From Desulforamulus reducens MI-1 (GTDB lineage Bacteria; Bacillota; Desulfotomaculia; Desulfotomaculales; Desulfotomaculaceae), in NCBI RefSeq assembly GCF_000016165.1, contig NC_009253.1:3111484-3175483 (forward strand): a stretch of DNA of 64,000 bases, given 5' to 3'. Of the stretch, positions 18,615 to 54,790 are shown in pieces; the stretch's first letter is position 1, and each line of letters begins with the position of its first letter. Under the pieces are notes generated by a model. That model made no database searches. It was given only the letters and a program-made list of their open reading frames with translations, and had not been told where the DNA came from. The translations under genes and the position numbers were made by a program.

Positions 18615-19046
18615 CTAGATTTGATAAACCTTATCACCGGGTACAATACGAACACCATTGGCCTGTAAAAGCTCGATTGCTTCGTCCACCTGCTCAACCC
18701 GAAAAACAATCAAGGCAGCAGTGGTGGTTTGTGTGACAAAGGCATATAAATACTCAATATTTATTCCAACCTTCTCCAGTAAACGTAAAATACTGCTTAA
18801 CCCACCGGGCTGGTCAGAAACTTCCACCGCAATAACATCCGTTGTACTGACTGTAAACCCCTGATCCTTTAGTACCTGATAGGCCAATTGAGGCTTATTC
18901 ACTATTAAACGCAGAATACCAAAATCTGTCGTGTCGGCAATGGAGAGTGCACGAATATTAATACCATTTTGTCCCAGTACATCTGTTACTTTGGCCAGCC
19001 GTCCCTCTTTATTCTCCAGGAATATGGAAATTTGCTGTACTCGCAC
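18615..19046 (-). CDS. Tandem ACT-domain amino-acid-binding protein
   Basis: A 143-residue protein made of two ACT domains (about residues 1-68 and 70-143), the fold that binds amino acids in regulators. The first carries QISIFLENKEGRLAKVTDVL, the second IAVEVSDQPGGLSSILRLLE. No catalytic domain is attached. In anaerobes such genes often follow paaK and indolepyruvate oxidoreductase genes, so aromatic amino acid sensing is likely; this is inference. The GTG start at 19044-19046 follows GGGGG by 8 nt. It is 25 bp downstream of paaK. Confidence 0.88.
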   Translation of the reverse strand: MRVQQISIFLENKEGRLAKVTDVLGQNGINIRALSIADTTDFGILRLIVNKPQLAYQVLKDQGFTVSTTDVIAVEVSDQPGGLSSILRLLEKVGINIEYLYAFVTQTTTAALIVFRVEQVDEAIELLQANGVRIVPGDKVYQI

Positions 19047-19071: not shown

Positions 19072-20376
19072 TTATAATTCCCTTTTATCAATAACTCTTT
19101 TCGCCTTACCTTCGCTTCTGGGCAAAGACTTGGGTTCCACCAGTTTAATTTTTGCAGAAATACCCAGTACACTTAAAATACGACTTCGTAATTTTCTCTC
19201 TAAAACCTCTAGTCCGGCAATTTTATCGGAAAACATTTTAGAAGAAAGTTCTACATGGATCTCCAAATCATCCATGGAAGCTTTACGATCCACCACCAGA
19301 AGATAATGGGGCTCGGTTTCACCAAATTCCAACAATACACTTTCAATTTGAGTTGGGAATACATTTACACCCCGAATAATAAGCATATCATCGGTCCGCC
19401 CGGTTATGCGCTCCATACGCAGGTGCGTTCTTCCACAGGCACATTTTTCTGGATAAAGGGCTGAAATATCCCTGGTACGGTAGCGGATGACGGGGAAACC
19501 TTCCTTGGTCAGGGTCGTAAAGACCAGTTCTCCCCTTTCACCATAGGGCAAAGGTTCTTCGGTCACTGGGTCAATAATCTCTGGAATAAAATGATCTTCA
19601 CAAATGTGGAGCCCATTTTTATAGGCACATTCGATGGCTACTCCAGGTCCTAAAACCTCACTTAAGCCGTATATATCATGGGCACGGATGCCAAGTTTCT
19701 CTTCTAACTGGTCTCTCATATTGTTGGACCAGGGCTCTGCACCAAAGATACCGGCCTTTAATCTTAGATTTTTAAGGTCTATACCAGCCGCATGAATTTC
19801 ATCGGCTAGATATAGGGCATAGGAAGGTGTACAGGTTAAAATTGTCGTACCAAAATCCTGCATCAGCATAATCTGACGTGCTGTATTCCCCCCCGAAATG
19901 GGCACAATGGTTGCCCCTAAACGTTCGGTACCATAATGAATGCCCAGACCACCAGTAAAAAGCCCGTAACCATAGGAATTTTGTACCACATCTTCTTTGG
20001 TCCCGCCCACCATTGTAATACAACGGGCCACCAGATCGGACCATGTTTCCAGGTCTTTTTTGGTATAGCCAACCACAATGGGTTTTCCAGTGGTACCGGA
20101 TGAAGCATGCATCCGCACAATTTCACTGCGTGGAACAGCAAACAATCCAAAGGGATAGGTATCCCGCAGGTCTTTTTTGGTGGTAAAGGGTAAATATTTT
20201 AGATCGCTAAGGGAGCGAATATCCCCAAGAGTTATCCCTTTCTCTTGAAAGGCCTGACGGTAAAAAGGAACATAAGTATAAACCCTTTCTACCAGGCTTT
20301 TCAGTCTTTTAAGTTGAATTTCTGCCAACTGCTCCCTCGACATTGTTTCATGATATGCATCCCAATATAAAGACAT
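19072..20376 (-). CDS. paaK: Phenylacetate-CoA ligase
   Basis: AMP-forming ligase that activates phenylacetate (or a related arylacetate) to its CoA thioester. The protein has 434 residues, the usual length. The P-loop-like [17 protein letters not shown] near residue 90, [14 protein letters not shown] near 240, and [19 protein letters not shown] in the C-terminal lid are typical. It is the first gene behind a T-box leader and is followed by a tandem ACT protein. In anaerobes this enzyme can feed reductive synthesis of aromatic amino acids via 2-oxoacid oxidoreductases. The Phe-type T-box supports such a biosynthetic or salvage role over degradation. The oxidoreductase genes are not in the window. 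Confidence 0.93.
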
Positions 20377-20484
20377 ATCGGCACCTCCATTTTATCAAAT
20401 TGCCATAAAATTTATAAAGTAGAATTTTTAGGAATTACATTATTTTTTCATCCCATTACCCCCAAAATAGACCCCCTTCCTAGA

Positions 20485-20906
20485 AAAAATAAAAAACTCC
20501 GTCCCAGCAAGGGACGGAGATACATTCCGCGGTACCACCCTAATTGGCCAGAGGCCCCACTTGTAAAGTACGGGAACACATCAAACCAGTAAAGAAACCA
20601 TAAAAAAACCCCGATCCCCAAGGGACGGAGTTACTTTCCGTGGTACCACCCTAATTGCAAAAAGGCCACTTTACCGGTACGGGACATGATCCGATACCTC
20701 TTCCCTTTTAACGGCGGGAAATCCCGTCTGCACCTACTGAACTTTCAGCACAGCAACTCCGGAGGGAACTTCAATCGGCCATACCTTAAAGAAGCTTCCA
20801 GTCTCGGCTTCTTCTCCCTGCAAGGCTGGGATGATTTACTTTTCTCCATCATCGGCTTTCCATATCAACTTAGAATTAAATTACCATAGCCCCCGTTCAG
20901 AGTCAA
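20485..20906 (-). promoter_or_regulatory. T-box riboswitch with duplicated antiterminator/terminator module, probably Phe-responsive
   Basis: On the minus strand a promoter (TTGACT 20901-20906, 17 bp, TAATTT 20878-20883) is followed by a full T-box. Stem I has an AAGAAGC/GCTTCTT distal arm. GAAG-TTC sits just before CTCCGGAG in the specifier position, pointing to UUC (Phe). The antiterminator AGGGTGGTACCACGG (about 20638-20654) is followed by a terminator (20602-20630). About 57 nt later comes a second antiterminator AGGGTGGTACCGCGG (20527-20543) and a strong terminator (CTCCGTCCC/GGGACGGAG, 20497-20519, T-run). No room exists for a second stem I. UGGU in both matches a tRNA ending ACCA. The region controls paaK. 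Confidence 0.9.
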
Positions 20907-21059
20907 TGTTTTTTCCGAATTTATTTTACATAGGGACTGTCCAATTTCCGTACAAATTATAGTATGAGTGACAACTTCCTTTAGGTCCCCTGCCCCACTG
21001 TTCGGTCTGTGCTTTTCTATACACAATAAAAACCCTTATTATATAAGTTATTAACAGAC

Positions 21060-25028: not shown

Positions 25029-26327
25029 CTAACAAGATTCCGGTTCTTTACCCAAGTACTGGGCCACAATTTTCATAGCGCAAAAATCGCCGCACATGGT
25101 GCAAGCCTCATGACCATCAGGATTACGTTCTTGCCTAATTTTTGCTGCCCTTTGTGGATCAATGGCCAGTTTTATTTGTTCATCCCAGTCCAGTGCCTTA
25201 CGTGCCCTGGCCATTTTTTTATCCCATTCCAGGGCTCCGGGAATCCCTTTGACAATATCCGCAGCATGGGCTGCAATACGAGAGGCCATAATCCCTTCTC
25301 GTACATCCTCCAGGGTTGGTAAACCCAGATGTTCCGCTGGGGTAACGTAACATAAGAAATCTGCCCCTGCGGCAGCAGCTACGGTTCCGCCAATGGCTGC
25401 GGTTATATGGTCATAACCCGGTGCAACATCTGTAACCAAGGGACCCAGCACATAAAAGGGCGCCCCTTTGCAGAGGGTTTTTTGCACCTCAATGTTGGCC
25501 CGAATTTGATCCAACGGAACATGACCAGGTCCCTCCACCATGGCCTGAACTCCTTTTTCCCTGGCTTTATCCACCAATTCACCCAGGATAATCAACTCCT
25601 GGATTTGTGCCCTATCAGTTGCATCTGCCAGGCAACCCGGACGCAAACCGTCTCCAAGACTTAATGTTACATCATATTTCAAGCAAATATCCAGCAGTCG
25701 GTCGAATTGCTCATACAAAGGGTTTTCTTTCCCATGATGAAGCATCCAACCTGTCAGGAAGGACCCTCCCCTGCTTACAATATCTGTAATGCGGGACTGC
25801 TTTTTAATGCGTTCTAAAACTTCAAGGGTAATCCCACAATGAACGGTAATAAAATCAACACCGTCTGAACAGTGTCTTTCAACCACTTCAAAAAGATCAT
25901 CGGCAGTCATGGCAATCATGCTACCCCTTTTGTTACGGTTTTCTAAAAAAGATTGATAGATCGGTACTGTACCCACTGCAATGGTACTTTCTTCAATGAT
26001 CCGTCGGCGCCCCTGGTCAATTTCTCCACCAGTACTTAAGTCCATTACAGCATCTGCTCCGGCTTCCAGTACAACCTTAAGTTTTTCCAGTTCTTTTTCT
26101 ATATCCGTAAAACTGGTGGATGTACCAATATTGGCATTAACCTTTGTTTTTAGACCCTTGCCAAAACCAACGGGATCTAAATTGCGGTGATTAATATTCG
26201 CAGGGATAACAATGCTTCCTTCAGCAACACCCTGCCGTATAAATTCCGGGCTAAGGCCTTCCTTTTCAGCCACCCGTTTCATGGCAGTGGTTATTTCCCC
26301 TGCCCTCGCCGCTAGCATTTGCGTCAT
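25029..26327 (-). CDS. thiC: Phosphomethylpyrimidine synthase ThiC
   Basis: Radical SAM enzyme that rearranges aminoimidazole ribotide into HMP phosphate for thiamine. The protein has 432 residues, the shorter form common in Firmicutes. Motifs are [46 protein letters not shown] and [19 protein letters not shown]. The C-terminal cluster motif reads [11 protein letters not shown], giving Cx2Cx3C by my reading. The gene is under a TPP riboswitch with a terminator in its leader and ends in its own terminator before thiL. Confidence 0.96.
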
Positions 26328-26341
26328 AGCTTCTCCTCCTT

Positions 26342-26495
26342 AGAAAAATAAAAAATGCCCATAGGAAATATGGGCATAAAATAGTATAGTACTCCCCACA
26401 TTCCCTTCGCTGGTATTAACCAGATCAGGTTCAAAGAGTCAAGCACATCATCGGGTGCCTATCTCAGCCCGCCTCTTCGGGCCCCCCTAATGGTT
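26342..26495 (-). promoter_or_regulatory. TPP riboswitch and its expression-platform terminator
   Basis: On the minus strand the THI-box core is clear: GGGCTGAGATAGGCACCCG (about 26453-26471) and CCTGATCTGGTTAATACCAG (about 26411-26430), followed by CGAAGGGAA. Downstream, ATGCCCATA (26355-26363) and TATGGGCAT (26369-26377) form a terminator with a long T-run. Thiamine pyrophosphate binding would favour termination ahead of thiC. Confidence 0.95.
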
Positions 26496-26610
26496 TATAT
26501 TCAATTATCCCTTTTATTCAACAGTAAGTCACTAAATTCCTGCGTGTCGAGAAAAACTTTACCTATGCAAGTCTTGATGCAGTATACCCGTGAAAAAAGT
26601 TAAACTACCC

Positions 26611-53767: not shown

Positions 53768-53843
53768 TGGAGCCGACGATGGGATTTGAACCCACGACCT
53801 GCTGATTACGAATCAGCTGCTCTACCAACTGAGCCACGTCGGC
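53768..53843 (-). tRNA. tRNA-Thr (anticodon CGU)
   Basis: A 76-nt gene with acceptor GCCGACG/CGTCGGC, D-arm GGCTCAGTTGGTAGAGC, anticodon loop of GATTCGTAATC with CGT, T-arm GTGGGTTCAAATCCCAT and an encoded CCA. Its own promoter lies just upstream: TTGCAT (53881-53886), 17 bp, TAGTAT (53858-53863). Confidence 0.95.
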
Positions 53844-53857
53844 TTAACTCAATAGCT

Positions 53858-53886
53858 ATACTACCAAAGACTTACGAAGAATGCAA
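53858..53886 (-). promoter_or_regulatory. SigA-type promoter of tRNA-Thr(CGU)
   Basis: TTGCAT (53881-53886) and TAGTAT (53858-53863) on the minus strand are separated by exactly 17 bp, with the tRNA 14 bp downstream. Confidence 0.65.
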
Positions 53887-53916
53887 GTATATTCAGATAA
53901 TATCCGTAGACAAATA

Positions 53917-53948
53917 AAAAAGAGACCCTGCAATGCAAGATCCTCTTT
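53917..53948 (-). terminator. Terminator after tRNA-Thr(GGU)
   Basis: AAAGAG (53919-53924) pairs with CTCTTT (53943-53948), with an inner TGCA/TGCA helix, followed on the minus strand by TTTTATTTG. It separates the Val-Thr unit from the tRNA-Thr(CGU) unit. Confidence 0.65.
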
Positions 53949-53949
53949 G

Positions 53950-54025
53950 TGGAGCTGCTAACCGGGATTGAACCGGTGACCTTATCCTTACCAAGGATAC
54001 GCTCTACCTACTGAGCTATAGCAGC
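53950..54025 (-). tRNA. tRNA-Thr (anticodon GGU)
   Basis: A 76-nt gene with acceptor GCTGCTA/TAGCAGC, D-arm AGCTCAGTAGGTAGAGC, anticodon GGT in TATCCTTGGTAAGGATA, T-arm CCGGTTCAATCCCGG and CCA. It lies 4 bp after tRNA-Val on the same transcript. Confidence 0.95.
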
Positions 54026-54029
54026 ATAA

Positions 54030-54105
<76 letters not shown>

Positions 54106-54118
54106 ATCGACATGAATT

Positions 54119-54147
54119 ATGTTAACAGAAATAAATCTTCAAGTCAA
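54119..54147 (-). promoter_or_regulatory. SigA-type promoter of tRNA-Val-Thr(GGU) unit
   Basis: TTGACT (54142-54147) and TAACAT (54119-54124) on the minus strand are 17 bp apart. The -10 region reads TGTTAACATA, as in the divergent unit. Confidence 0.75.
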
Positions 54148-54572
54148 TAAAAATATCCTTGGGATTTTTTATATTCTTTAAGGACATGTTTCCTGGAGGT
54201 ATTGAATTTAACTTATCTGTTTTTTCAAACTCTACTAAAGGTACTAAAAGCGAAGTTTATTATTAAAGATTATTTAAAATATCAACATTGTGAGTAAAGG
54301 GACAAAATGCGTTCATATGTTCGCAACCTACTATAAACATGTCAAATTAGAATTTATTTGGATCATTCTCTGTACATTGTTCATCAGAACTTAGCTTATC
54401 CTACATTTAGGGTTATCATTAGACAAAGCCCTTCGTTTGTCCACCTGTGGCTTAGACGTTTATGAACTTAACAGACTATTAAGGATTCTAATATTGTAGA
54501 AGGCCCTGCGGAATAAGATACTGTTTATGGTTATTTTTAAATTCAAGCTGCAAAAACATTAAAATTATGCAA
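54148..54572. other. AT-rich spacer between divergent tRNA units
   Basis: About 425 bp with no reading frame of note, no terminator and no recognisable family. It is bounded by the two tRNA promoters. Confidence 0.5.
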
Positions 54573-54579
54573 AAACATG

Positions 54580-54608
54580 TTGACTTAGTAAGGTTAATTT
54601 GTTAACAT
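54580..54608 (+). promoter_or_regulatory. SigA-type promoter of tRNA-Val-Asp unit
   Basis: TTGACT (54580-54585), 17 bp, then TAACAT (54603-54608). The extended TGTTAACATA matches the divergent tRNA promoter. Confidence 0.75.
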
Positions 54609-54628
54609 ATCAATTGTCAGTTGCGATT

Positions 54629-54704
<76 letters not shown>

Positions 54705-54713
54705 ATCAAAATT

Positions 54714-54790
54714 GGAGCTGTGGTGTAGTGGCCTAACATGCCTGCCTGTCACGCAGGAGAACGCGGGTTCGACTCCCGTCAGCTCCGCCA
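54714..54790 (+). tRNA. tRNA-Asp (anticodon GUC)
   Basis: A 77-nt gene with acceptor GGAGCTG/CAGCTCC, D-arm GTGTAGTGGCCTAACA, anticodon GTC in CCTGCCTGTCACGCAGG, T-arm CGCGGGTTCGACTCCCGTC and CCA. It is 9 bp after tRNA-Val on the same transcript. Confidence 0.95.

Follow-up and report, generated by a model that had tools for sequence, protein, structure and literature searches.

One specifier domain and two discriminators in Phe-type T-box leaders of Desulfotomaculales: a candidate strand-exchange link between two successive checks of tRNA-Phe

Vitreschak et al. (2008, RNA 14:717) reportedly described a structural class of T-box leaders with duplicated terminator-antiterminator elements. Partially tandem T-boxes are a known kind, and a review calls their mode of action unknown (PMC7583486). 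Tandem riboswitches have also been catalogued, and the Figure 1 legend of that catalogue sets out five architectures, none of which is one aptamer serving two platforms in series (PMC9481103). Here we describe the leader upstream of paaK in the window, by which we mean the whole 64,000-nucleotide stretch of Desulforamulus reducens MI-1 DNA that was analysed, compare it with its relatives in the Desulfotomaculales and suggest how its second module may work. The features of the leader, all on the minus strand, are collected in Table 1.

The full RF00230 model (positions 1-219) matches the minus strand at 20861-20618 with 105.4 bits (E 3e-22; gathering threshold 93), and the match takes in stem I with its specifier loop, the AG-box and stem II/IIA-B with its F-box; the specifier in this alignment is GAAGTTC, that is UUC/Phe. 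The stretch that follows terminator 1 (20616-20507, minus strand) matches the model only at positions 128-219 (30.1 bits, E 1.6e-5), with the T-box and antiterminator 2 aligned in full. According to the Rfam alignment and the terminator scans, both modules have a T-box bulge and an antiterminator that competes with a terminator. All elements of a discriminator, namely stem III, the flanking RRRxG..AA, the T-box bulge and helices A1/A2, are present in module 2 of the window, the motif with stem III flanked by RRRxG..AA being defined as in PMC7583486. A distance of 111 nt separates the two T-box motifs, and T-box 2 follows about 60 nt after terminator 1 has ended. The first-pass annotation, made from the letters alone, had described a full T-box followed by a second antiterminator and a strong terminator, with too little space between them for a second specifier stem, so that one specifier stem would precede two acceptor-sensing switches. 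This anatomy is borne out by the full and 3'-part Rfam matches, the 9-bp terminator and the relatives described below; the RF00230 search of the minus strand of 20480-20910 accepted the second antiterminator and found no stem I between terminators 1 and 2. The paaK leader is a partially tandem T-box, with one specifier domain and two complete discriminators with their terminators, and not a full tandem T-box, in which each unit has a stem I of its own.

Table 1. Features of the paaK leader and of the genes downstream of it (window positions; 5s, 5' strand of the docking hairpin)
Feature	Position	Strand	Basis and remarks
Promoter -35-like hexamer TTGACT	20901..20906	-	sequence reading, inside the interval of the first-pass annotation; under the automatic-scan threshold, hence weak
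Complete T-box leader: stem I, stem II region, IIA/B, discriminator 1	20618..20861	-	Rfam RF00230
Specifier region GAAGTTCCC, codon UUC (Phe)	20764..20772	-	alignment to RF00230
Stem IIA/B, F-box CCGTTA	20701..20728	-	sequence and Rfam alignment
5s and loop, AGGTATCGGATCATG; single copy per leader	20685..20699	-	conserved in 112 leaders
Copy 1, 3' strand, TCCCGTACC; predicted local hairpin with 5s	20676..20684	-	leader comparison and folding
CCGGTAAAG, which overlaps copy 1 at its end and is complementary to the CTTTACTGG preceding copy 2	20669..20677	-	duplex and permutation test; some signal also in the reversed control
Module 1 stem III and flanking purines	20655..20672	-	sequence, leader alignment
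T-box 1, AGGGTGGTACCACGG, 5' part of antiterminator 1	20638..20652	-	Rfam alignment
Terminator 1, CTCCGTCCCTTGGGGATCGGGG-TTTTTTT	20602..20630	-	terminator scan (around 20626-20609); dG -14.4; weaker of the two
CTTTACTGG, candidate partner of 20669-20677	20586..20594	-	duplex/permutation test, folding
Module 2: stem III, T-box, antiterminator, strong terminator; without stem I	20582-20491	-	
Copy 2 and extension, GATGTGTTCCCGTACTT; predicted to pair with 5s (20699-20685), module 1 looped out	20566..20582	-	folding, permutation tests, compensatory changes
Module 2 stem III, AAGTG-GGGCC-TCT-GGCC-AA (RRRxG-stem III-AA)	20544..20563	-	motif definition PMC7583486
T-box 2, AGGGTGGTACCGCGG, 5' part of antiterminator 2	20527..20541	-	Rfam partial match
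Terminator 2, CTCCGTCCCTTGCTGGGACGGAG-TTTTTT	20491..20519	-	terminator scan (stem 20519-20497); dG -18.5, 9 bp
paaK, phenylacetate-CoA ligase, regulated gene	19072..20376	-	ORF; Pfam PF14535/PF00501
ACT-domain-pair protein, likely same operon as paaK	18615..19046	-	ORF; Pfam PF19571

Orthologues of paaK in Desulforamulus are 90% identical, and the nearest named relatives are Desulforamulus. Elsewhere in the window there is a TPP riboswitch (26384-26498, minus strand; 73.6 bits, Rfam) directly upstream of a long, thiC-looking ORF (25029-26327), and a tRNA cluster on both strands (53768-54790) which includes two tRNA-Val(tac) genes on opposite strands.

Relatives of the leader were sought with a pattern of two T-box motifs 78-138 nt apart in 113 Desulfotomaculales genomes. 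The pattern matched in 79 of these. Some matches were spurious, falling on RNase P-like GGTGGAAGCCCG sites or arising by chance, and a pair was retained only if CG[T/C]CC followed T-box 1. This left 112 double-module leaders, extracted as plausible matches, a number which includes the doubtful L244, where copy 2 is not recognisable. The half T-box of the first-pass annotation thus proved to be one member of a widespread class, of a type already present in the literature as partially tandem T-boxes, and both of these points had been missed there. The specifier is UUC in all 112 leaders (89 by pattern, 23 by eye), and GAAGTTC stands in the alignment of 18 leaders of the genus. The UGGU that pairs with the ACCA end of tRNA-Phe (A73) is kept in module 1 of every leader and in module 2 of 110 of the 112, and stem III with its flanking motif was recovered in module 2 of 92 by a strict pattern. 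Spacing and sequence are conserved across these leaders, which come from many families and stand before several types of gene: DAHP synthase (58), paaK (16), an ABC-type substrate-binding protein (14), sodium:solute symporter-like (11) and TrpX-like (5) genes and a few singletons. The class sits mainly before genes for aromatic amino acids, namely DAHP synthase, paaK and transporters. The layout of the paaK leader is conserved in D. aeronauticus, a Desulfotomaculum MAG and D. putei, and the genome from which the window was taken has two further double-module leaders, before a shikimate kinase gene and a gene for a TrpX-like substrate-binding protein. The shikimate kinase gene has a single-module leader (L291) in one genome and a double-module leader (L111) in this one.

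In a phylum-wide sample, 19 of 299 genomes had a match to the pattern, some of them RNase P-like, and several of those from outside the class are of the Phe type and have a similar helix. L281, from a different family of the phylum, has two discriminators spaced by 98 nt upstream of an asnA-like gene and does not have the CCCGTACC helix; its half-tandem layout possibly had an independent origin.

A full tandem T-box in decay, now without its second stem I and itself being lost, is a very improbable origin for the class: the genome does hold a full tandem T-box with a T-box spacing of 366 nt before an ilvD-like gene, but the conservation of spacing and sequence in 112 leaders points to long-term selection.

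The leaders have a hairpin that separates stem IIA/B from stem III of module 1; it is formed by the strand 5s, GGGTATCGGA or GGGTATAAGGA, and copy 1, TCCCGTACC. A second copy of the 3' strand, TTCCCGTACC, precedes stem III of module 2, and no second 5s was found before module 2 in the aligned leaders. The first-pass annotation had noticed that the CCCGTAC segment seems duplicated from module 1, as is seen both in the sequence and in the relatives; what it missed is that this segment forms the 3' strand of a helix with a single 5' strand, located before module 1. We had considered that the GGTATCGGA...CCCGTAC hairpin might be exclusive to double-module T-boxes, and this was rejected, as 13 of 76 matches to it in the order are single-module T-boxes (L287-L293, L297-L299 and L301-L303, before metS-like, pheA-like, aroK and other genes). 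Since these single-module leaders have the same hairpin, it does not distinguish the double form, and the pairing of copy 1 looks like an ordinary docking element. The docking hairpin precedes or outlives the duplication of the module, and it looks like an ancestral linker helix of which the 3' strand was duplicated along with the discriminator.

Copy 2 could be a passive by-product of that duplication or a second partner for 5s, and the co-variation between the two strands bears on this choice. Using 49 cluster representatives, the duplex of 5s and its loop with copy 2 was at -17.1 kcal/mol with its own partner compared with -13.4 kcal/mol with permuted partners (z -10.7, reached by 0 of 20000 permutations), whereas the reversed copy 2 gave z -2.0 in the same set. 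With 22 representatives z was -8.6, and -6.4 for the part outside the conserved core. Tests with one sequence per subcluster yielded z -3.3, -2.1 and -3.0 within the three largest clades; inside two smaller groups of few, similar sequences the permutation test was not significant. Core cells were paired with copy 2 in 96.6% and with copy 1 in 96.2% of cases, compared with 94.6% in shuffles for each, and in neither case did any of 2000 shuffles reach so high a value. Individual leaders have changes in 5s that are compensated by copy 2 and not by copy 1, namely G-C to A-U in L175/L177, G-C to C-G in L199/L203 and G to A in L218. In 20 leaders, mostly from Desulforamulus and including that of the window, the first helix position is A; in 19 of them this A pairs with a U in copy 2, but it has a partner in copy 1 in only 3. 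Outside the class, the 5s CCAGUAU of L266/L267 matches a copy 2 GUACUGG, and copy 2 of L271 has lost its resemblance to CCCGUACC and still pairs with UAUCGG. The compensatory changes occur in different families and therefore probably represent separate events, judging by family membership. Copy 2 thus co-varies with the single 5s strand, as a docking variant that works by strand exchange would be expected to do, and a helix between 5s and copy 2 is well supported by the comparison. An extension of this helix, between the bases after copy 1 and those before copy 2, gave z -5.2 compared with -4.0 for its reversed control; because the control gives a nearly equal signal, only the 5s:copy 2 part of the helix is secure and the extension pairing is weak.

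One account of the class would be a plain half duplication, in which module 2 only adds a further terminator, largely independent of tRNA, that reduces leakage, and the copied CCCGTAC is a passenger without a role. In its favour, the terminator of module 2 is more stable than that of module 1 in 90 of 108 leaders. However, a plain terminator would have no need of the acceptor-sensing residues which module 2 retains, both the UGGU and the stem III motif, and a passenger would not be expected to change with 5s independently of copy 1, as copy 2 does. We regard this account as rather unlikely.

The geometry and the folding of the window's transcript are in agreement with an alternation of the two copies on 5s. 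Helix and stem III are separated by a linker with a median of 7 nt, equal in the two modules; from copy 1 to T-box 1 there are 36 nt, and from copy 2 to T-box 2 there are 33 nt. With RNAfold, the transcript of the window ending at T-box 1 has a 5s:copy 1 probability of 0.78, and the transcript reaching T-box 2 has a 5s:copy 2 probability of 0.96. Over the 112 leaders the mean for 5s:copy 1 before module 2 is 0.79; after module 2, equilibrium folding gives means of 0.35 for copy 1 and 0.37 for copy 2, and 0.08 for a foreign copy 2. The even division between copies 1 and 2, and the preference of some leaders (L199) for copy 1 in the equilibrium fold, speak against the exchange. The fold z-scores of the isolated modules were unremarkable and were set aside.

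The same helix could also act as a lock rather than in a hand-over, enclosing module 1 so as to shield the readthrough transcript or to fix the decision taken at site 1, with discriminator 2 working autonomously. The predicted helix does enclose module 1 and can be long, the long-range duplex of the window reaching -33 kcal/mol. Against this, the equal helix-to-stem III linker in both modules suggests that discriminator 2 is positioned like discriminator 1, and a 4-bp acceptor contact would probably not suffice for a tRNA that is not anchored. A mere lock is, in our judgement, unlikely.

In another reading, copy 2, and copy 1 likewise, would function as an anti-antiterminator, its UUCCCGUAC pairing with GUACCGCGGAA of the neighbouring T-box and keeping the antiterminator shut until tRNA binds. 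The minimum free energy structure of the isolated second module does fold in this way. As the T-box is nearly invariant, however, such a role predicts no co-variation of copy 2 with 5s, yet this was seen, and the copy 2 of L271 and of L266/L267 differs from CCCGUACC and still matches 5s. Although the isolated fold had suggested such a role for CCCGTAC, we rejected it as the main one on account of the co-variation, and we give this reading little credence.

We favour, with moderate confidence, a hand-over in which one tRNA-Phe sensor serves two discriminators in turn, copy 2 displacing copy 1 on 5s and module 1 being looped out. Comparison of the leaders shows the elements on which this model draws, namely the architecture, the UUC specificity, the sensing residues of both discriminators and the complementarity of 5s and copy 2 with its compensations. 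According to the model, the 5s:copy 1 hairpin would hold discriminator 1 beside stem II while terminator 1 is being synthesized, and discriminator 1 would test the acceptor end of the bound tRNA, a charged tRNA leading to termination at site 1. After readthrough, copy 2 and the bases preceding it would invade the hairpin and pair with 5s and the adjacent bases; module 1 would be looped out, and discriminator 2 would take up the same position relative to stem I/II. We infer that this strand exchange would be co-transcriptional and that the same tRNA would be tested again, now at the stronger terminator 2, although the tRNA might instead stay on antiterminator 1. Since uncharged tRNA-Phe would be needed at two consecutive checkpoints with one recognition arm, low leakage and a steeper response would be expected. 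The tighter termination that the first-pass annotation proposed is plausible.

In six Desulforamulus DAHP synthase leaders (L113-L115, L117, L127 and L128), module 2 is without a U-tract terminator, and its CGUCCC strand can fold over the ribosome-binding region GGAGGGAU and mask it. This suggests that the DAHP synthase leaders of Desulforamulus may be hybrids in which module 1 terminates transcription and module 2 controls translation, and here the last step of the hand-over would probably be masking of the ribosome-binding site instead. For the class as a whole, we would believe and doubt in about equal measure that one ligand-binding domain operates two successive expression platforms through a duplicated docking strand, with the discriminators swapped over the same tRNA as a form of proofreading of the aminoacylation state, and with some members, the Desulforamulus DAHP synthase leaders, deciding first on termination and then on translation.

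The anatomy of these leaders is already known, and what is new is the proposed working of module 2. Like the partially tandem T-boxes described before, they place two antiterminator/terminator modules after a single specifier domain, but the paaK-type leaders differ in the re-pairing helix of 5s with copy 2, its compensations and the hand-over model. These three were not found in the literature searched, though Vitreschak et al. 2008 may mention the helix, and a search on duplicated terminators or second antiterminators and on Desulfotomaculum T-boxes gave nothing beyond reviews. The model would offer a concrete mechanism for partially tandem T-boxes that has support in the sequences. In full tandem T-boxes, as would be the case here, tRNA is checked twice in series upstream of a single operon (PMC12452182); however, each full tandem unit has its own stem I and its own tRNA, whereas the paaK leader has a single stem I. 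A full tandem T-box in the same genome (L015/L016, 287263-287876), before the ilvD-like gene, stands in contrast to the half-tandem form. Pseudo-cooperative and bi-mechanism tandem riboswitches would be similar in that the same ligand is checked serially, and pairs that act on transcription and then on translation exist among them (PMC9481103). If the hand-over is true, a single sensor takes two serial decisions via strand exchange, a layout absent from the architectures of that catalogue. A simple counterpart is the single pheS T-box of the same genome (L009), which also has a UUC specifier and one discriminator of the same kind, but has neither a docking hairpin of this sequence nor a second module. 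The half-tandem layout is tied to genes of aromatic amino acid supply; the ordinary single form is kept by the T-box of pheS in this genome.
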